From positions 1 to 32,392 of the forward strand of contig JABFYB010000444.1 in NCBI GenBank assembly GCA_013361475.1: a stretch of DNA of 32,392 nt, in the 5' to 3' direction. Both the position numbers and the translations under genes were made by a program. Positions 13,437-26,526 of this stretch are shown in pieces; position 1 is the first letter of the stretch, and every line of letters begins with the position of its first letter. The notes beneath the pieces were generated by a model, which worked only from the letters and a program-made list of their open reading frames with translations, did not search any database and was not told the DNA's origin. This stretch comes from Hamadaea sp. GTDB taxonomy: Bacteria; Actinomycetota; Actinomycetes; Mycobacteriales; Micromonosporaceae.

Positions 13437-13910
13437 ATGGCTGACCAACGACCGCCGCGCCTCGTCACCGGCGAACGGGAGAACCTCGTCCAGCTGCTCC
13501 AGTTCCAGCGGGAGTCGCTCGTCCGCAAAGTGACGGGAGTCGCCGAGGAGGCGGCGCGGCAGTCCCCGGTCGGCAGCGGCACCTCCTTGATGTGGCTCGT
13601 CAAGCACCTCACCGAGACCGAGTACTCCTGGTTCCGGCGGCGCTTCGCCGGCGAACAGGTCGAGCTTCCGTCGGCGGAGGTGCTGCCCGATGACACCGTC
13701 GGGGCCGCGGTGGCGGCGTACCAGCAGGCCTGGGCGGACGTCGCGCCGATCCTCGCGACCGGCGACCTGGACGCCGAATGCCGTGAACCCGGCTCGCAGC
13801 CGCCGATGAACCTGCGCTGGGTCATCGCGCACATGCTGGAGGAGACGGCCCGGCACGCCGGTCACGCCGACATCATCCGCGAGCTGATCGACGGCTCGAC
13901 CGGCCGCTGA
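13437..13910 (+). CDS. DinB/DUF664-family protein
   Basis: 157 residues of a four-helix DinB-like fold. The metal-binding histidine pattern of DUF664 is present: WLVKHLTETEYSWFRRRF (His in helix 2) and IAHMLEETARHAGHADIIRE (His cluster in the last helix). In actinobacteria, many such proteins are mycothiol- or other thiol-dependent transferases. The C-terminal motif is highly typical. Twenty-five bases separate it from the next gene, so a two-gene transcript is possible. Confidence 0.88.
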   Translation: MADQRPPRLVTGERENLVQLLQFQRESLVRKVTGVAEEAARQSPVGSGTSLMWLVKHLTETEYSWFRRRFAGEQVELPSAEVLPDDTVGAAVAAYQQAWADVAPILATGDLDAECREPGSQPPMNLRWVIAHMLEETARHAGHADIIRELIDGSTGR

Positions 13911-15221: not shown

Positions 15222-15497
15222 TCACGCAGGTTCAGTCAGCCGCCGGCGAAGCTCGCCTTCGAATCCCTCGTACGCCGGCACGACGTCTTCCAGATCCAAC
15301 TGTGGCGGCAGATCGTCGGGGCGTTGGCGGGTCAGCAGATAGTCGATCGTCGCCTCGACCACGCGTACGGCGGGGACGCCGTCCGGTGCGACGCGCGCGA
15401 CGGCGTCGGCGGACGCCCGGACCAAGATTTCGACGGAGTCGTCTTCGAACGGGATCCGCACGAGGTGTTGTTCGCCGTCGAGTTCCTCGATCATCAC
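15222..15497 (-). CDS. Small acidic hypothetical protein next to the gas-vesicle operon
   Basis: 91 residues, not recognised. Composition is acidic and soluble, with a short beta-rich start (EELDGEQHLVRIPFEDDSVEI) and a helical middle (VRVVEATIDYLLTRQRPDD). GTG 15497 sits 9 nt after AAGGAG; ATG 15494 is the next choice. An upstream ATG (15506) directly abuts the ribosome-binding site and is unlikely. It is divergent from gvpY, with 223 bp between the starts. No link to gas vesicles can be shown beyond position. Confidence 0.6.
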   Translation of the reverse strand: MMIEELDGEQHLVRIPFEDDSVEILVRASADAVARVAPDGVPAVRVVEATIDYLLTRQRPDDLPPQLDLEDVVPAYEGFEGELRRRLTEPA

Positions 15498-15593
15498 GAT
15501 GATCATCTCCTTGGTGCGTGGCCACGATCGGCTATGGATCATGCTATGCCTGCGCTTCCGGGCAGGTGATCGCACATTCGCCCGGCCCGGCCC

Positions 15594-15618
15594 GTTTGCT
15601 GCGAGGGCGCGAGGGTAC
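15594..15618 (+). promoter_or_regulatory. Sigma-B-type promoter of the gas-vesicle operon
   Basis: GTTT (15594-15597), 15 bases, GGGTAC (15613-15618). This matches the GNNT-N14-16-GGGTAC/T consensus of stress/differentiation sigma factors (sigma-B family) in Streptomyces. It lies 102 bp upstream of the gvpY start in an otherwise empty 223-bp intergenic region. The match is seen in the sequence; use by sigma-B is inference. Confidence 0.62.
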
Positions 15619-15720
15619 GCGTCGCCAGATCCAACGGCTGGGCTCGCTATCTAGGCCCTCACCAGCGAAAACAAGGCTTCCATCGGTGCGTCCAGCCGTA
15701 CATGAGATGGGAGGACATCG

Positions 15721-16302
15721 ATGAAACCGACAGTGGCGATTCCCCTCGCCGTCGGCGTCGGCTACGTGCTGGGACGAACCCACAAGCTGAAGCTCGCCAT
15801 CCTGCTGGGTGCGGCGGCGGCTGCGGGGAAGTTCGCCGGGCCGGCCAACGAGATGATGCAGCGGGGAGCGCGTTCGTTGACCTCGTCGACTGACTTGAAG
15901 CAGCTCACCGAGCCGGGCCAACGGCTCATGGAGGCGGCCAAGGGCGCCGCGATGACCGCGCTCACCAGCCGCCTGAACCAACTCAGCGGACGCCTCACCG
16001 AAGGCATGCCGAGTATCGGCGGCAAAGGGGGCGAGGAGTCGGACGAGCGGGAATCCGAGGAACAGGAGCCGGAGGAGCGGCGCGAACGCTCGCAGTCCGG
16101 TGAATCCCGGCGCGGCCGGCCGGCCGGACGCCGGCGCGAAGAGCCGGAGCCCGAGGAGGAGACCGACGAGTACGACGAAGGCGACGAGGGCGACGAAGAC
16201 GAGGACTACGAGGAGCCGGAGGAACAGCCCCGTGAGCAGGCGCGCGGCCGGCAGCCGGTACGCCGCAATCGGCCCGAACCGGCCGGGCGGCGGGGAAGGT
16301 AG
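15721..16302 (+). CDS. gvpY: Gas-vesicle cluster protein GvpY-like
   Basis: 193 residues in two parts. Residues 1-45 hold two short hydrophobic stretches (VAIPLAVGVGYVLG; KLAILLGAAAAAGKFAG), probably a membrane-associated hairpin. A helical section follows to about residue 98. The tail is extremely charged, alternating Glu/Asp-rich and Arg-rich runs (EESDERESEEQEPEERRE; DEYDEGDEGDEDEDYEEPE), and is surely disordered. ATG 15721 has GGGAGG 6 nt upstream. It is the first gene of the operon, 6 bp before gvpZ. The name follows the Streptomyces gvp cluster by context and composition; function is unknown. Confidence 0.7.
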   Translation: MKPTVAIPLAVGVGYVLGRTHKLKLAILLGAAAAAGKFAGPANEMMQRGARSLTSSTDLKQLTEPGQRLMEAAKGAAMTALTSRLNQLSGRLTEGMPSIGGKGGEESDERESEEQEPEERRERSQSGESRRGRPAGRRREEPEPEEETDEYDEGDEGDEDEDYEEPEEQPREQARGRQPVRRNRPEPAGRRGR

Positions 16303-16308
16303 CCCGAG

Positions 16309-17301
16309 ATGACCGCGCACACCGGTGAACGTCCCACAGGCGTCCTCGGCAAAGCCGTCGAGAGCGTGATCAGCGCCGTGGGGAAGCGGGCCGTCTCGTC
16401 CGTCAGCGACCGCATGGGGTCGGCGACCGAGCGTCTGGCCGACTACACCAAGGGGGCGGCGGGAGACGTCAAGGAGGCCGTCCTCGACAACAGCGGACCG
16501 GCGGGCAAGGCCCTGGGCCTCGTCGACAAGGTCAAACAGAAGCTCGGCGGTGGTGGCGGCGGTGGCGGCAAGCTCAAGGTCACCAACATCGTGGAGAGCA
16601 TCGACGTCGCGGTGCCCCTCAGCGTCGCGTACAACCAGTGGACGCAGTTCACCGACTTCCCGAGCTTCATGAAGAAGGTCGAGGCGGTGGAACAGGGCGA
16701 CGAGCCGCAGAAGCTGTCGTGGAAGGCCCAGATCCTCTGGTCGCATCGCAGCTGGGAATCCGACATCGTCGACCAGGTTCCCGACCAGCGGATCGTGTGG
16801 CGGTCGCAGGGGGCGAAGGGTTACCCCGACGGCGCGGTGACCTTCCACGAACTCGGCCCGAACCTCACCCGGATCGTCCTCGTCCTCGAATACCACCCAC
16901 AGGGGTTCTTCGAGTACACCGGCAATCTCTGGCGGGCGCAGGGCCGCCGGGCGCGGCTGGAACTCAAGCACTTCGCCCGGCACGTCATGACCGACACGCT
17001 GCTGCATCCGCAGGACGTCACCGGCTGGCGCGGCGAGATCCACGACGGTGAGGTGACCGCCGAACCAGGCGAAGCCGAGGCCGACACCGAACGCGACGCA
17101 GAGGGCGGCACCGAGGCCGAAAGCGGCGACCGTGACGAGCCTCGTCGTGACGAGTCCCGCGGCGACCGTGGCGACTCCCGTGGCGACCGTGGCGACCGCA
17201 GTGACCGAAGTGACCGTGGCGACCGTGGCGAGTCTCATGACGACCGCGAGAAGCCGCGTGGTGAACGCCGCGGCCGGGCGAAAGCGGAGGCGCGATCATG
17301 A
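16309..17301 (+). CDS. gvpZ: Gas-vesicle cluster SRPBCC-domain protein GvpZ-like
   Basis: 330 residues. Residues 1-79 are helical ([20 protein letters not shown]), then eight glycines (80-87) form a hinge. Residues about 91-235 are an SRPBCC/cyclase-dehydrase-like domain ([67 protein letters not shown]). The last 85 residues are a disordered charged tail with RGD/RSD triplet repeats. SRPBCC domains bind hydrophobic ligands; a role on vesicle or membrane lipid is conceivable but unproven. It overlaps gvpA by 4 bp. The name is by analogy with the Streptomyces cluster. Confidence 0.75.
17158..17232 (+). repeat. 9-bp tandem repeats in the gvpZ tail
   Basis: Eight units of the CGTGGCGAC type, with one 3-bp insert (TCC), encode Arg-Gly-Asp and Arg-Ser-Asp triplets. 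Copies are near identical, so the array is likely to vary in length between strains. Confidence 0.85.
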
Positions 17302-17657
17302 CCATCTCCACCGGTGACGGCGGCGGCTCCGGCTCGGGCTCGTCCCTGGCCGACGTCGTCGACACCGTCCTCGACAAGGGGCTGGTGATCGACGCGTACA
17401 TCGGCGCGTCGGTCGCCGGCATCGAACTGCTGACCATCAACGCGCGGGTGGTCGTCGCCAGCGTCGACACCTATCTGCGGTTCGCCGAGCGAGCCGATCG
17501 GCTTCAGCTGGACTCCGGCGGAGCCGGTCTGCCTGAGGTGGTCCAGTCCGCGACCTCCGGCCACGCGAAGGGCAAGGCGGCCAACAGCGCACTGGGCGCG
17601 GCCAGCTCGGCACTCGACCAGCTGGCCGACTCGCTCGGCTCCCGGCAACGACAGTAG
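17298..17657 (+). CDS. gvpA: Gas-vesicle structural protein GvpA
   Basis: 119 residues. The GvpA core (residues 15-66) is nearly canonical: [40 protein letters not shown] and [14 protein letters not shown]. GvpA forms the ribbed beta-sheet shell of the vesicle. A Gly/Ser-rich N-terminal lead (residues 6-16) and a 50-residue Ala/Ser-rich C-terminal tail extend it beyond the classic length of about 70 residues; such tails occur in other actinobacteria. ATG 17298 overlaps the gvpZ stop (ATGA). Of the three GvpA-fold genes here, this is the one most like the main shell protein. Confidence 0.92.
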
Positions 17658-17666
17658 GGGACGGAC

Positions 17667-18434
17667 ATGTCTGATCGCGACACCGGCCACGGAAGCGTCT
17701 GCTACGTGTACGGCGTGGTGCCGGCCGACGTCGAAATCGACGAGGAGGTGCGGGGCGTCGCGGCCCCGCCGGCTCGCGTACAGGTGATCCGGCGGGGCCG
17801 GGTCGCGGGGCTGGTCAGCGAGATAGACCGCGACCGGCCGCTGGGCCGGCCCGACGACCTCGTCGCGCACAAGCAGGTCCTCGACATGGTCGCGGCGGTG
17901 GCCCCGGTGCTGCCGATGCGCTTCGGCGCCGTCGCGCCCAGCGCGGAGGTCATCGCCGACGAGCTGCTCGACGCGCATCAGGACGAGCTGGCCGCCGACC
18001 TCGACGACATCGAGGGGTACGCCGAATACGTCCTGCACGGCCGCTACGACTCGGAGGCATTGCTGGCCGCGGTATTGCAGGAGAACCCGGCGGCCGCCCG
18101 GCTGCGGGACGCCCTCCACGGCGTACCGGAGGAGCAGAGCCGGGACGCGCGGATCCGGCTCGGCGAGTTCATCGGTCAGGCGGTGGAGGCGAAGCGGAAG
18201 GCGGACACCGAAACGGTGATGCGGGAGCTGCAGCCGCTCGCCCGCGAAATGAGCGTTCGCGACCCGACGCACGAGGACGACGCGATCTATCTCGCCGTCC
18301 TGGCCGAGACCGGACGCTCCGGCGACCTCGAACAGTACGCCGAGGACTTGGCACACCGCTGGGACGGCTGGATCACGCCGCAGCTGCTCGGCCCGATGGC
18401 GGCGTACGACTTCGTCGCCGCACCGGAGGCGTGA
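17667..18434 (+). CDS. gvpF: Gas-vesicle protein GvpF
   Basis: 255 residues of the GvpF/GvpL family, which contact GvpA and are needed in small amounts for assembly. Landmarks: YVYGVVPADVE at the start, VAGLVSEIDRDRPLG, KQVLDMVAAVAPVLPMRFGAV (the family core), and the C-terminal WDGWITPQLLGPMAAYDFV ending. It is called F rather than L because it follows gvpA and precedes gvpG, as in Streptomyces. GGGGACGG lies before ATG 17667. Nine bases separate it from gvpA and one base from gvpG. Confidence 0.92.
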   Translation: MSDRDTGHGSVCYVYGVVPADVEIDEEVRGVAAPPARVQVIRRGRVAGLVSEIDRDRPLGRPDDLVAHKQVLDMVAAVAPVLPMRFGAVAPSAEVIADELLDAHQDELAADLDDIEGYAEYVLHGRYDSEALLAAVLQENPAAARLRDALHGVPEEQSRDARIRLGEFIGQAVEAKRKADTETVMRELQPLAREMSVRDPTHEDDAIYLAVLAETGRSGDLEQYAEDLAHRWDGWITPQLLGPMAAYDFVAAPEA

Positions 18435-18435
18435 C

Positions 18436-18702
18436 ATGGACCTGTTCGCGGCCATCGCCACGTTGCCGCTGGCACCGGTACGCGGCCTGCTGGCGGTGGC
18501 CAAGGTCATCCAGGGTGAGGTGGACCGGCAGCTCTACGACCCGGGGAACGCCCGGCGGCAGATCGAGCAGCTGGAATCGGCCCAGCAGAGCGGTGACCTG
18601 TCCGATGCCGACCGCGAACAGGCCGAGCGGGAGATCGTCGGGCGGCTGGTCGCCCAGCCGTCCGACACCACCTCGGACAACGGTGGGGAGGAGCAAGAAT
18701 GA
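18436..18702 (+). CDS. gvpG: Gas-vesicle protein GvpG
   Basis: 88 residues, a small helical GvpG. The family core LPLAPVRGLLAVAKVIQGEV, DRQLYDPGNARRQIEQLE and AEREIVGRL is clear. GvpG is an accessory protein predicted to form coiled coils. It overlaps gvpO by 4 bp (ATGA), so the two are translationally coupled. Confidence 0.92.
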   Translation: MDLFAAIATLPLAPVRGLLAVAKVIQGEVDRQLYDPGNARRQIEQLESAQQSGDLSDADREQAEREIVGRLVAQPSDTTSDNGGEEQE

Positions 18703-19022
18703 GAACCCATCACGACACCGACGTCTCCGGGCGGCGCCGCAACGGAGCGGACCAGGACCTGACGACCGCCGAGGCGGCGCAGGCCGGGCTGCGGCACGTC
18801 GCGGACCTCACCGGCAACGAAACCGTGGGCATCGTCTCGGTCGAGCCGTCCGACCAGGGCTGGCTGATCGGCGTCGAGACCGTCGAGGAACGGCGTGTCC
18901 CGTCCTCGACCGATGTCTTGGCGTTGTACACGGCGGAGATCGACCTCGACGGCGAACTGCTGTCCTACCGGCGCGTCCGCCGGTACTCACGGGGTCACGG
19001 CGACGACGGGGTCTCCTCATGA
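18699..19022 (+). CDS. gvpO: Gas-vesicle protein GvpO
   Basis: 107 residues. The GvpO domain occupies residues 20-100: AAQAGLRHVADLTGNETVGI, VSVEPSDQGWLIGVETVEER, TDVLALYTAEIDLDGELLSY and RRVRRYSRG. GvpO is essential for vesicle formation in haloarchaea and is conserved in actinobacteria. The first 18 residues are a variable charged lead. It overlaps both neighbours by 4 bp. In Streptomyces gvpO stands first in the operon; here it is sixth. Confidence 0.92.
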   Translation: MRTHHDTDVSGRRRNGADQDLTTAEAAQAGLRHVADLTGNETVGIVSVEPSDQGWLIGVETVEERRVPSSTDVLALYTAEIDLDGELLSYRRVRRYSRGHGDDGVSS

Positions 19023-19402
19023 CCGAATCCACCACAGGCATGGCACAACCGCTGGGCGCCCCGGCGACCGGCCAGCAGTCGGCCAATCTCGGCGACATCC
19101 TGGAGCGCGTCCTGGACAAGGGACTCGTGATCGTCGGCGACATCAAGGTCAACCTGCTCGACATCGAGCTGCTGACCGTCAAGCTCCGGCTGCTCGTCGC
19201 GTCCGTGGAAACCGCCCGTCAGCTCGGCATCGACTGGTGGCAGCACGATCCGTGGCTCACCTCCGGTGCACAGCCGGCCGTCGACGGCCCGACGCGTACG
19301 CCGGTCACCGGTCCCCGGCGGGAGGCCATCGCGAACGGCGACCACTTCGCGGAGCAGCGGTTCTCGGACGATCGACCATCGGAGGAGCAGAACGATGAGT
19401 AA
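19019..19402 (+). CDS. gvpJ: Gas-vesicle protein GvpJ
   Basis: 127 residues. The GvpA-fold core (residues 22-66) reads [40 protein letters not shown] and SVETA, followed by the GvpJ-specific block ARQLGIDWWQHDPWL. GvpJ is a minor GvpA homologue thought to act at nucleation or the cone tips. The last 45 residues are a variable hydrophilic tail. ATG 19019 overlaps gvpO; the last 8 bp overlap gvpL. Confidence 0.9.
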   Translation: MTESTTGMAQPLGAPATGQQSANLGDILERVLDKGLVIVGDIKVNLLDIELLTVKLRLLVASVETARQLGIDWWQHDPWLTSGAQPAVDGPTRTPVTGPRREAIANGDHFAEQRFSDDRPSEEQNDE

Positions 19403-20279
19403 CCGAACGGGCCTCTGGCTCTACGCGGTCACCCGTCCGTCCGACGACCTGGACGGGCTGGCGATCACCGGGATGAGAGGTCAACCCGTGTGCCTGCGCG
19501 ACGTGGGGGACCTCGTCGCCATCGCGACCGTGCTGGACCTCGACGCCGCGCCGGCCGCCGACCTCGGAACCGCGCTGAACGACCTGCCGACGCTCGAGCC
19601 CATCGCGCGTGCCCACCATGCGGTCATCACGGTTGTCGCCCGGATGGGCGCCACCCTGCCGGCCCGGCTGGCCACCGTCTTCTCCGACCACGACAGCCTC
19701 GACACCCTGCTGGCCGAGCGGCGATACCAGTTGCACGCCGCCCTCGACCACGTCGCTGGGCGTACCGAATGGGGGATCAAGGTCTACCCGCGAGCCACGG
19801 CGGCGGATGCCGCCGACTCGGCCGACGACGGCTCGGCGACCGGCGCGGGCGCCCGATATCTGCAGCGGCGCCGGGCCGAGCTGGACGCCGGTCGCCGGGC
19901 CGCCGCGCGGACCGCCGCGACCGCGCAGACCATCTATCGCGTGCTGGCCCGGCACAGCCAGCAGGCTCAGCAGAACCTGGTCGGCCGGGTGCCGCGGGCC
20001 GAGGTCCCGGTGCTCAACGGCGCCTTCCTCGTCGACGATCGCGACGTCGGCGTCTTCCTCGGCGCGGTCGACGGCCTGCGCCACAGCAATCCCGAGGTAC
20101 GCGTGGACATCACGGGTCCGTGGCCGGCGTACTCGTTCGCCGAGCTGAACCTCGCGCAGACCGACCTGCATCTCGACCAGGCCGAGCTGAACCCGGAACC
20201 GGCCGAGCTGAGCCTCGAACGAACCGAGCCGAGCCGGGGAGCCGCAGCGGGCTTGGGGGCGGACCGTGCAGCCCTATGA
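19395..20279 (+). CDS. gvpL: Gas-vesicle protein GvpL (GvpF/L family) with repeat tail
   Basis: 294 residues, second GvpF/L protein. Core: LWLYAVTRPSDDLDGLAITG, HHAVITVVARMGATLPARLA, EWGIKVYP, YLQRRRAELDAGRRAA, VPVLNGAFLVDDRDVGVFLG and ITGPWPAYSFAELN. Compared with GvpF it carries an Ala/Asp-rich insert (TAADAADSADDGSATGAGA), and its C-terminus ends in five 7-residue repeats (residues 249-283). GGAGGAGC precedes ATG 19395. It overlaps gvpJ by 8 bp and gvpS by 14 bp. Confidence 0.9.
   Translation: MSNRTGLWLYAVTRPSDDLDGLAITGMRGQPVCLRDVGDLVAIATVLDLDAAPAADLGTALNDLPTLEPIARAHHAVITVVARMGATLPARLATVFSDHDSLDTLLAERRYQLHAALDHVAGRTEWGIKVYPRATAADAADSADDGSATGAGARYLQRRRAELDAGRRAAARTAATAQTIYRVLARHSQQAQQNLVGRVPRAEVPVLNGAFLVDDRDVGVFLGAVDGLRHSNPEVRVDITGPWPAYSFAELNLAQTDLHLDQAELNPEPAELSLERTEPSRGAAAGLGADRAAL
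20139..20243 (+). repeat. 21-bp degenerate tandem repeats at the gvpL 3' end
   Basis: Five in-frame 21-bp units starting at 20139 encode AELNLAQ, TDLHLDQ, AELNPEP, AELSLER and TEPSRGA. The first four share an (A/T)(E/D)L-x-(L/P) pattern, and GCCGAGCTGA is repeated at the DNA level in three units. Confidence 0.7.
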
Positions 20280-20469
20280 CGACCCGGTCGATCAGCCGGT
20301 CGTCCTCCCACCCGCGCAGACGTCCCTGGTCGACATCCTGGACCGCGTCCTGGCCGCCGGGGTCGTCATCACCGGAGACGTGACGATCTCCATCGCCGAG
20401 GTCGACCTGATCCACCTCTCGCTGAACGCCCTGCTCGCCTCCGCGGCCGGGGTCGAGGATCCGCGATGA
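20266..20469 (+). CDS. gvpS: Gas-vesicle protein GvpS (GvpA-fold)
   Basis: 67 residues, the shortest GvpA-fold protein here: TSLVDILDRVLAAGVVITGD, VTISIAEVDLIHLSLNALLA, SA. The VDLIHLSLNALL segment matches the GvpS/GvpM type rather than the shell protein. GTG 20266 follows GGGGGCGGA. It overlaps gvpL by 14 bp and gvpK by 4 bp, which secures its place in the operon. Confidence 0.88.
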   Translation: MQPYDDPVDQPVVLPPAQTSLVDILDRVLAAGVVITGDVTISIAEVDLIHLSLNALLASAAGVEDPR

Positions 20470-20777
20470 CCGCCACCGGTCCGCCGAGCAGCCGCCGGAT
20501 CGAGCTCGACCGCGACTCCGCCGAGCGCGGCTTCGCTGCCCTGGTGCTCACCATCGTCGAACTGATCCGCCAGCTCATGGAACGCCAGGCGTTGCGCCGC
20601 ATCGACCACGGCGACCTCACCGACGACCAGATCGAGCAGATCGGCGCCACGCTGCTGGCCCTCGACGAGCAGATGACCGTGCTGTGCGAGCATTTCGGGC
20701 TGCGGCCGGAGGACTTGAACCTGGATCTGGGCCCCCTGGGCACACTGCTGCCGCCGGAACACCCGCGTTCCTCCTAA
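20466..20777 (+). CDS. gvpK: Gas-vesicle protein GvpK
   Basis: 103 residues, last gene of the operon. The GvpK signature is strong: RIELDRDSAERGFAALVLTI, VELIRQLMERQALRRIDHGD, LTDDQIEQIGATLLALDEQM and GLRPEDLNLDLGPLG. GvpK is a helical accessory protein required for assembly. ATG 20466 overlaps gvpS. Sixty-four bases separate its stop from the STAS gene; they contain only a weak hairpin (CCCC..GGGG). Confidence 0.93.
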   Translation: MTATGPPSSRRIELDRDSAERGFAALVLTIVELIRQLMERQALRRIDHGDLTDDQIEQIGATLLALDEQMTVLCEHFGLRPEDLNLDLGPLGTLLPPEHPRSS

Positions 20778-20841
20778 CGAGCAGCGGTCCAAACGCGCGC
20801 CCGGCCGGATTTCCCCTCCCGGTGGGGCACACAATGGTCGG

Positions 20842-21141
20842 ATGGCTGACCAGGAACCCGGCCCACCGACCATGGTGGTCGTCAAGCTGCACGGTGCGCT
20901 GGATTTGCAGACCAAAGACGCGGCACTGGCGCAGCTGCTCGACGCCGTCCGAGGCCGGCACCACGTCGAAGTGGACATGAGTGAGGTCACCTTCGTCGAC
21001 TCGACCGCGATCTCGATGTTGGTGCGCGTACGCGAACTCGCGGCGGCCGACGGTCTGCGGCTGCGGGTGAGCCACCCGGCGCCGCTGGTGCAGCGAGTCT
21101 TGCGCGTCACGGGCGTACACGATCTGCTGACCGGCCGGTGA
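20842..21141 (+). CDS. STAS-domain anti-sigma factor antagonist
   Basis: 99 residues, a single STAS domain. Ser54 in FVDSTAISML is the usual phosphorylation site of anti-anti-sigma factors (SpoIIAA/RsbV type), which bind an anti-sigma kinase in the partner-switch circuit and free a sigma-B-type factor. It sits directly after the gas-vesicle operon, which itself has a sigma-B-type promoter. No anti-sigma kinase or sigma gene is in the window. ATG 20842 has no ribosome-binding site; CACAAT lies six bases upstream, a weak leaderless pattern. Confidence 0.88.
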   Translation: MADQEPGPPTMVVVKLHGALDLQTKDAALAQLLDAVRGRHHVEVDMSEVTFVDSTAISMLVRVRELAAADGLRLRVSHPAPLVQRVLRVTGVHDLLTGR

Positions 21142-21846: not shown

Positions 21847-22281
21847 GTGACCGAAGAGATCGTCGACAGCCCGGTCGGCTGGGTGGCCAAGCACATCAAT
21901 TCCTATGTAGACAGCGACGGCGGCCGGGGACACGAATACTACGGCGTCAACGCCTTGCTCCTGACGACACGCGGGCGCAAGTCCGGCAAGCTTCGCCGCA
22001 CCGCGCTGTACTACGCAACGCGTGGCGACGACGTCGTGCTGATCGCGTCCAACGGCGGATCCGTGGGGCATCCCCTGTGGTATCGCAACCTCACCGCCGA
22101 CCCCAACGTCACGCTGCAGATCAAGGACGACGTGTACGCGGCGGTGGCGCGTACCGCCGAAGGTGCGGAACGGGCCGAACTCTGGGACCTGATGGTCGGC
22201 GTCTTCCCGAAGTACGCCGAATACCAGGCGAAGGTCGAGCGCGAGATCCCCGTCGTCGTCCTGACGCGTACGGCGGACTGA
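21847..22281 (+). CDS. Deazaflavin (F420)-dependent nitroreductase-family protein
   Basis: 144 residues of the Ddn/FDOR-type split-barrel family, which use F420H2 (some members FMN or heme) to reduce quinones, nitro compounds and others. Family motifs: VNALLLTTRGRKSGKLRRTA with LYYATRGDDVVLIASNGGS, HPLWYRNLTADPNVTLQI, ERAELWDLMVGVFPKYAEYQ. The start is GTG 21847. Presence of such enzymes is typical of F420-making actinobacteria. Confidence 0.92.
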   Translation: MTEEIVDSPVGWVAKHINSYVDSDGGRGHEYYGVNALLLTTRGRKSGKLRRTALYYATRGDDVVLIASNGGSVGHPLWYRNLTADPNVTLQIKDDVYAAVARTAEGAERAELWDLMVGVFPKYAEYQAKVEREIPVVVLTRTAD

Positions 22282-26500: not shown

Positions 26501-26526
26501 ATACCCGGCCCCGGGAGGGCACAAAC
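26501..26526 (-). promoter_or_regulatory. Sigma-B-type promoter of the universal stress protein gene
   Basis: On the minus strand: GTTT (26523-26526), 16 bases, GGGTAT (26501-26506), with the GTG start 25 bp further on. It fits the same GNNT-N14-16-GGGTAC/T pattern as the promoter before gvpY. Confidence 0.6.

Follow-up and report, generated by a model that had tools for sequence, protein, structure and literature searches.

The role of gas-vesicle (gvp) genes in soil actinobacteria is reportedly an old question (van Keulen et al. 2005). The closest described systems are the gvp clusters of Streptomyces coelicolor, for which a table in PMC5839063 agrees, through gvpS, with the order O-A-F-G-Y-Z-J-L-S-K given in a preliminary description of the DNA studied here, and places gvpY and gvpZ between G and J; a figure legend in PMC2631018 identifies gvpK as SCO6508. 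A passage of PMC4982088 already reports S. coelicolor to be without gvpN, and PMC5733086 contains the statement that the promoter of its gvp operon (SCO6496-6508) is SigB-regulated. A gvpAFGOJLMK cluster has been published from Nocardia (PMC7600791), and the description of a solved shell in PMC9994262 gives Glu43-Arg31-Glu38 as the salt bridges of the rib and Val35 as a seam residue. Here we analyse a gvp operon of Hamadaea sp. on contig JABFYB010000444.1 (assembly GCA_013361475.1); the window is the whole stretch of 32,392 nt analysed, and all positions follow its numbering.

The operon spans 15721-20777, with all ten open reading frames on the + strand in the order Y-Z-A-F-G-O-J-L-S-K. It is complete and ordinary, with the gvp arrangement that was commonest in our actinobacterial samples, which mostly explains what had been found unusual about it. 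The part worth pursuing is the joint loss of a charged triad in the shell protein GvpA, together with a stress-type promoter motif. Our preferred reading, on which we are evenly divided, is that stress induces the operon, whose product would be a modified shell of the gas-vesicle type.

The GvpA protein of the window aligns by sequence to the solved shells of Bacillus megaterium GvpA2 (PDB 7r1c) and Anabaena (8gbs). Its model shows a helix-strand-strand-helix core, with a mean predicted local distance difference test (pLDDT) of 60.7 and values of 70-87 for the blocks of residues 21-60, and an extra C-terminal helix of low confidence beyond the shell core (residues 97-116). In a fold search with this model, 7r1c and 8gbs were the only matches with E < 0.001, at TM-scores of 0.27-0.45 and a root mean square deviation of 7.7. 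Three positions of the alignment are of particular concern; residue numbers 31, 35, 38 and 43 follow B. megaterium GvpA2.

17403-17405, + strand: gvpA codon 36, aligned with Arg31 of GvpA2, encodes Gly
17415-17417, + strand: gvpA codon 40, aligned with Val35 of GvpA2, encodes Ala
17439-17441, + strand: gvpA codon 48, aligned with Glu43 of GvpA2, encodes Asn

The triad of the window is Gly31, Glu38 and Asn43: Arg31 is gone and the inter-subunit acidic partner is now Asn, so that the Arg31-Glu38/Glu43 salt bridges, which characterize the solved shell but are no published criterion for the family, are missing from this GvpA. The copy from a same-genus genome has Ser31, Val35, Glu38 and Asn43; a sequencing error therefore does not account for the missing Arg31 and the missing acid at 43, whereas Gly31 and Ala35 are, within the genus, seen in this assembly alone. 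Our literature search on these residues found the cryo-electron microscopy paper of the shell and, among the matches listed, no actinobacterial study.

Triads were compared in 120 distinct actinobacterial GvpA cores, which are related sequences, after four paralogues of the AS_KL/AA_KL type had been dropped from 151 rows. All 88 distinct sequences with Arg31 carry acids at both 38 and 43. Among the 32 distinct sequences that are devoid of Arg31, both acids are kept in 3 and lost in 15, only that at 38 is lost in 8 and only that at 43 in 6. Outside the actinobacteria, seven records of archaea, cyanobacteria and proteobacteria supplied eight gvpA copies, two of which, from Nostoc, are alike; all eight have Arg or Lys31, Glu38 and Glu43. 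Such conservation, in 8/8 and 88/88 sequences, argues against an ordinary gas-vesicle system whose shell simply tolerates the loss of the Arg31 network, and which makes vesicles under some condition with nothing special about it, an explanation that we hold to be rather unlikely. In its favour, PMC9501494 states that Haloferax still made vesicles with about two-thirds of 60 GvpA variants carrying a single substitution.

The history of the triad was followed on a tree of 133 loci built from GvpF, L, K and O and analysed by parsimony with a midpoint root. By this crude test Arg31 changed about eight times, through six losses and two apparent returns, or through more losses. Of the 34 Arg31-less tree loci, 29 fall into one main clade of 34 tips (support 0.98), which is centred on the window's family, and the other five losses are single tips. 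Since five loci with Arg31 nest inside this clade, Arg31 either returned or was lost more often; the internal support is partly weak (the group of four that includes the window has 0.54). Each of the eight inferred losses of an acid maps to a branch without Arg31; such branches make up 17.5% of the tree length when the branch of the Arg31 loss itself is counted among them (p ~9e-7, assuming change proportional to branch length). Among the tree loci of the own family, Arg31 is missing from 21 of 25 that are of the YZAF type, against 1 of 11 of other orders.

The variant has been kept by many species of a single clade, which argues against a decaying, cryptic locus with a GvpA on its way to losing function, which we regard as very improbable. 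Decay would fit the patchy presence of the cluster, with gvpK in one of three other same-genus genomes, the sharing of the cluster but not of its flanks with the same-genus genome, and the pace of change in GvpA. At equal GvpF distance, the GvpA core is 2-8 times more divergent among Arg31-less than among Arg31 loci, in a comparison of non-independent pairs with only 8 and 11 pairs in its first bin, while GvpK divergence is lower. The extra change is mostly confined to polar positions, which speaks against decay, as do the ten open frames, with a pairwise ratio of nonsynonymous to synonymous substitutions (dN/dS) against the same-genus copy below 1 for every gene (range 0.16-0.58: K 0.16, O and F 0.18, G 0.50, A 0.58).

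GvpA has thus changed faster in the Arg31-less group, with its hydrophobic positions retained. The positions that are hydrophobic in 7r1c have a mean hydrophobic fraction of 0.895 in sequences without Arg31 versus 0.917 in those with it, and the entropy of the polar positions is 0.83 versus 0.12. The retained positions suit an ordinary vesicle; they are also what is expected for a gas-facing wall, which argues against a gas-free protein structure, in which GvpA and its helpers would, under stress, build a shell, rib or filament that has some other role. This alternative, distinctly unlikely in our estimate, would agree with the relaxed polar positions of the hairpin and with the stress-type motif upstream. 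A more daring proposal, possible though we lean against it, is that the rib was rebuilt in a large clade whose centre is the window's family: the loss of Arg31 would have freed both acidic partners, the salt bridges would have given way to a hairpin face of Ser, Gln and Asn that is largely uncharged, and the inner face would have stayed hydrophobic. With a stress-sigma promoter and no GvpN, this would yield a stress-induced shell, small and soft, that does not serve as a float. If this is true, the Arg31-less clade offers a series of natural mutants of the GvpA lattice.

The motif upstream of gvpY has the form of a SigB-type promoter consensus as given in PMC8346170.

15594-15618, + strand: predicted general-stress sigma (SigB/SigF type) promoter GTTT-N15-GGGTAC, from the sequence pattern

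This site, of the kind expected for a SigB/SigF regulon (GTTT-N14-17-GGGTA), leaves 102 bases to the start of gvpY and is the sole one on the + strand of the window; the - strand carries one, at 26526. Position 15594, with which the preliminary description began, is its first base and not a gene start. The looser pattern, with a spacer of 14-17, occurs upstream of 54 of 102 Y-led loci, where random stretches of these loci would give 1.9 and shuffled sequences 0.3; elsewhere it is found in 5/9 A-led loci (one at distance 0), 3/10 O-J-L-led loci and 1/19 O-A-led loci. After removal of near-duplicates, the motif with a spacer of 15-16 is present in 45 of 96 distinct Y-led upstream regions, with a spacer of exactly 15 in 40 of them and a reverse-strand count of 1 in the same 96. 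The 79 other letter permutations of the motif gave 44 matches in total (mean 0.56, or 1.11 over all 80 with the real motif), the best of them, with 14, being an overlapping variant. The motif is thus enriched upstream of gvpY, and by its pattern GTTT-N15-GGGTAC may be a working promoter. One sigma factor of the SigBFG type scores above the cut-off in the own genome (257.7 bits). A literature search on SigB and gas vesicles yielded no paper on Y-led operons among the matches listed. No sigma-70-type promoter or terminator was found within 15400-20950.

The genes of the operon were assigned by open reading frame calls, alignment and family profiles, as follows.

15721-16302, + strand: gvpY, 193 amino acids, from reading frame call and alignment, without a Pfam or NCBIfam match
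16309-17301, + strand: gvpZ, 330 amino acids, SRPBCC/Polyketide_cyc domain at residues 100-222 (PF03364, 64 bits, cut-off 23.4)
17298-17657, + strand: gvpA, shell protein, 119 amino acids (PF00741, 52.4 bits, cut-off 25)
17667-18434, + strand: gvpF (PF06386, 187.7 bits)
18436-18702, + strand: gvpG (PF05120, 62.2 bits)
18699-19022, + strand: gvpO (PF05800, 91.5 bits)
19019-19402, + strand: gvpJ, GvpA paralogue (PF00741, 51.4 bits, cut-off 25)
19395-20279, + strand: gvpL (PF06386, 159.2 bits)
20266-20469, + strand: gvpS, GvpA paralogue with a GTG start (PF00741, 57.8 bits, cut-off 25)
20466-20777, + strand: gvpK (PF05121, 121.3 bits), the sole GvpK match in the own genome

The Pfam scores of A, J, S, F, L, G, O and K all exceed the family cut-offs, and NCBIfam names A, F, J, L and S only, each below its curated cut-off. 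The GvpA-family shell protein and the assembly proteins GvpF/L, G, J/S and K expected of a gas-vesicle cluster are therefore in place, and the presence of A, F, G, J, K, L, O and S together counts in favour of an ordinary system. Reading frames and Pfam bear out the ten genes and the order that the preliminary description had given; its "ten overlapping genes" is slightly too strong, since six of the nine junctions overlap (Z/A, G/O, O/J, J/L, L/S and S/K), but Y-Z, A-F and F-G are separated by 6, 9 and 1 bases. No GvpC was recognized by Pfam among the ten operon proteins, the rest of the genome not having been searched for it; B. megaterium is likewise described as without GvpC (PMC9994262).

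Gene order was compared in 81 loci, consisting of the window, 40 regions out of 81 gvpK places in 300 own-family genomes and 40 out of 105 in 394 class genomes, picked mainly for genus spread. Genes were labelled by profiles from the window proteins and their relatives, and a few leftover LL or LJL cases were scored as non-exact; six plasmid loci were labelled as well, outside these counts. The gvpK gene is found in 78 of the 300 own-family genomes and in 90 of the 394 class genomes (the latter including one below the cut-off), frequencies that, beside the remark in PMC4982088 that S. coelicolor has no known vesicle-forming condition, would sit well with a gas-free structure. The exact order YZAFGOJLSK is the commonest, in 32 of 81 loci from five families: 21/41 in f1, the window's own family, 3/15 in f19, 1/1 in f2, 5/6 in f22 and 2/2 in f29. 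The exact order OAFGYZJLSK occurs in 12 loci, 7/12 in f21, assigned from its gene order as the Streptomyces family, and 5/15 in f19, and a third order, with O-J-L leading and A-F-Y-Z trailing, in 3/3 loci of f20 and 5/41 of f1. In a second sample, seeded with GvpZ and so blind to clusters without Z, YZAFGOJLSK is again the commonest order, with 52 of the best 80 of 311 loci confirmed in named genomes; the genera include Amycolatopsis, Mycobacterium, Rhodococcus, Gordonia, Nonomuraea, Micromonospora, Nocardioides and one Streptomyces. Some genomes are present twice among the loci compared. Y-Z-A-led clusters are also carried by Rhodococcus plasmids (L037, L038, L151 and L152), some of them cut short or with two gvpA genes, so the gvp cluster occurs on plasmids.

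The window carries YZAFGOJLSK on one strand and not the Streptomyces order; as no order is commoner in either sample, this arrangement is the ordinary one and we rejected the rearrangement that had been proposed. The proviso attached to that proposal, that an identical order in all relatives would leave nothing rearranged, applies largely though not wholly. It is the Streptomyces order that differs from the commonest actinobacterial arrangement of our sample.

The AAA ATPase GvpN is called conserved in all gvp clusters in PMC9501494. In the own assembly, which comprises 7.1 Mb in 831 contigs and is 87.7% complete, the search for gvpN gave six sub-threshold matches only, the best with 38.6 bits against a cut-off of 266.8; nor was gvpN found in any of 388 class genomes at 1e-30 (six candidates scored per genome in the rows listed), or in nine gvpK-bearing actinobacterial genomes at 1e-20, with 58-114 candidates scored in each. 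Because the search of 388 genomes had matched nowhere, control searches were added, which recovered gvpN from pNRC100 (439.7 bits) and from all five other plasmids with an annotated gvpN (309-408 bits); as all five carry annotated gvpN, they test the search and not a rule. A Thiodictyon record, one of the seven non-actinobacterial ones and outside the plasmid control set, has a lone gvpA and no gvpN in the fetched stretch. The claim that the operon is without gvpN holds for this assembly, and is nothing special, no actinobacterial genome or plasmid searched having given a match above threshold; its absence is nonetheless at odds with an ordinary vesicle system. According to a passage of PMC4982088, GvpN mutants of Serratia form small bicones.

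The names Y and Z hold for the window proteins, because the same families occupy the G-to-J slot in O-A-F-G-Y-Z-J-L-S-K loci, where S. coelicolor gvpY and gvpZ sit. In alignments, GvpY has a conserved short, hydrophobic, Gly-rich N-terminus and a charged low-complexity tail, and GvpZ combines the SRPBCC domain with a tail that is acidic in most rows; the GvpZ model is of low confidence (mean pLDDT 54.8). Full GvpZ (> 300 bits) is present in 11 of 20 gvpK-bearing genomes versus 1 of 38 without gvpK, in a set of 58 genomes purposely enriched for gvp loci without Y-Z, whose counts are not frequencies. This association suggests that Y and Z may have helper or anchoring roles; with GvpZ in 11 of the 20, they are only partly to be called obligate gvp genes. 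Among the best 80 of 311 Z-seeded loci, 12 show only Y-Z and 3 only Z-Z, some close to contig ends. Pairs of gvpY and gvpZ, or tandem Z genes, were seen apart from a gvp cluster in Nonomuraea gerenzanensis and three other genomes (L040, 5740-7714; L272; L273; L274).

In a possible mechanism for the stress-induced, modified shell, the operon is probably transcribed from one general-stress sigma promoter. GvpA would be the subunit of the shell, with F, L, G, O, J, S and K as the set that assembles it into ribs, and Y, with its hydrophobic N-terminus, and Z, with its SRPBCC domain, as accessory proteins; the predicted product is a GvpA shell that has ribs and whose inner face is hydrophobic. Devoid of Arg31, the ribs would depend on backbone hydrogen bonds and uncharged side chains and are expected to be softer. 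Lacking GvpN, the shell may remain small and bicone-shaped, like that of the Serratia mutants, or may not elongate or not form, as in a B. megaterium gvpN mutant. On this reading a shell would form that may be gas-filled, may be small or weak and may serve in osmotic or stationary-phase stress. The stress idea of the preliminary description gains indirect support from the stress-sigma-type site and from the SigB statement of PMC5733086, and the product may be a shell, as it proposed, or a buoyancy organelle. The report in PMC5839063, citing van Keulen 2005, that gvp disruption leaves the buoyancy of S. coelicolor in liquid unaffected tells against an ordinary vesicle system.

Several observations weigh against the reading that we prefer. 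The window GvpA still has Glu38; its dN/dS is the highest of the ten and also fits relaxed constraint; and position 29 is an exception among the hydrophobic positions, its hydrophobic fraction falling from 0.35 to 0 in the Arg31-less group. The exact motif is missing from 51 of the 96 Y-led upstream regions, and the looser one is found in only 1 of 19 O-led loci. Upon acid shock of S. coelicolor, 11 gvp genes are given as up but gvpA and gvpF (SCO6500/6501) as down (PMC2631018). The small-bicone expectation is weakened, since, according to PMC11223475, electron microscopy revealed no vesicles for the B. megaterium cluster with a gvpN stop mutation. The S. coelicolor cluster is neither among the five that gave detectable vesicles in Escherichia coli in the account of PMC10344784, in which clusters of known producers failed too, nor in the two vesicle-giving hybrids described in PMC12081810, and gas vesicles are so far only predicted for these clusters. 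Streptomyces is listed among vesicle formers in PMC9501494, so the literature, as far as these statements go, disagrees on Streptomyces vesicles. The widespread stress-sigma-type motif says when to look for gvp activity, and the lineage without rib salt bridges provides natural variants for what the bridges do for shell strength, which bears on the design of ultrasound reporters.

A gene for a protein with a STAS domain of the anti-sigma antagonist type lies 64 bases 3' of gvpK (20842-21141, + strand). It was considered as a linked sigma-factor regulator or conserved part of the operon and rejected, with relatives in only 4 of 173 other loci, and is for that reason probably a chance neighbour. 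Joint acquisition of the operon with its neighbours was also set aside, the flanks not being common to the same-genus genome. Nearby genes encode a protein of the mycothiol-S-transferase/DinB family (13437-13910, + strand) and an F420H2-dependent quinone reductase (21847-22281), and the window contains no Rfam family or tRNA gene. In the sampled loci, a divergent GvpA-like type (VLNADIMVSV...) adjoins GvpK and GvpL in L043, L074, L135 and L136; L043, L135 and L136 have it without most other gvp genes, and such loci are possibly a separate, reduced system.

Compared with known systems, the Halobacterium plasmid pNRC100 shares the GvpA, F, G, J, K, L and O families with the window but differs in its annotated gvpN, gvpC, gvpD and gvpE, in having no Y-Z and in its intact triad. 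The GvpA2 of B. megaterium (7r1c) and the GvpA of Anabaena (8gbs) belong to the same family and have the helix-strand-strand-helix core predicted for the window protein, but with Arg31, Glu38 and Glu43 in place of Gly, Glu and Asn, and the window also has Ala for Val35. The published Nocardia gvpAFGOJLMK cluster (PMC7600791) and the Rhodococcus plasmid clusters share the A-F-G-O-J-L-(S/M)-K run of the window, and the four Rhodococcus plasmid loci start, as it does, with Y-Z-A; the GvpA proteins of these four and of the named Nocardia and Rhodococcus tree loci keep Arg31, Glu38 and Asp43, unlike the window. The clusters of S. coelicolor (SCO6499-6508 and SCO0649-0657) have the same families including Y and Z and, by the account in PMC4982088, likewise miss gvpN, and the SigB regulation reported in PMC5733086 parallels the stress-type site of the window. 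They differ in the O-A-F-G-Y-Z-J-L-S-K order (PMC5839063), against Y-Z-A-F-G-O-J-L-S-K here, and the ten f21 loci on the tree, taken as the Streptomyces family by their order and not including S. coelicolor GvpA itself, have a GvpA that keeps Arg31, Glu38 and Asp43.

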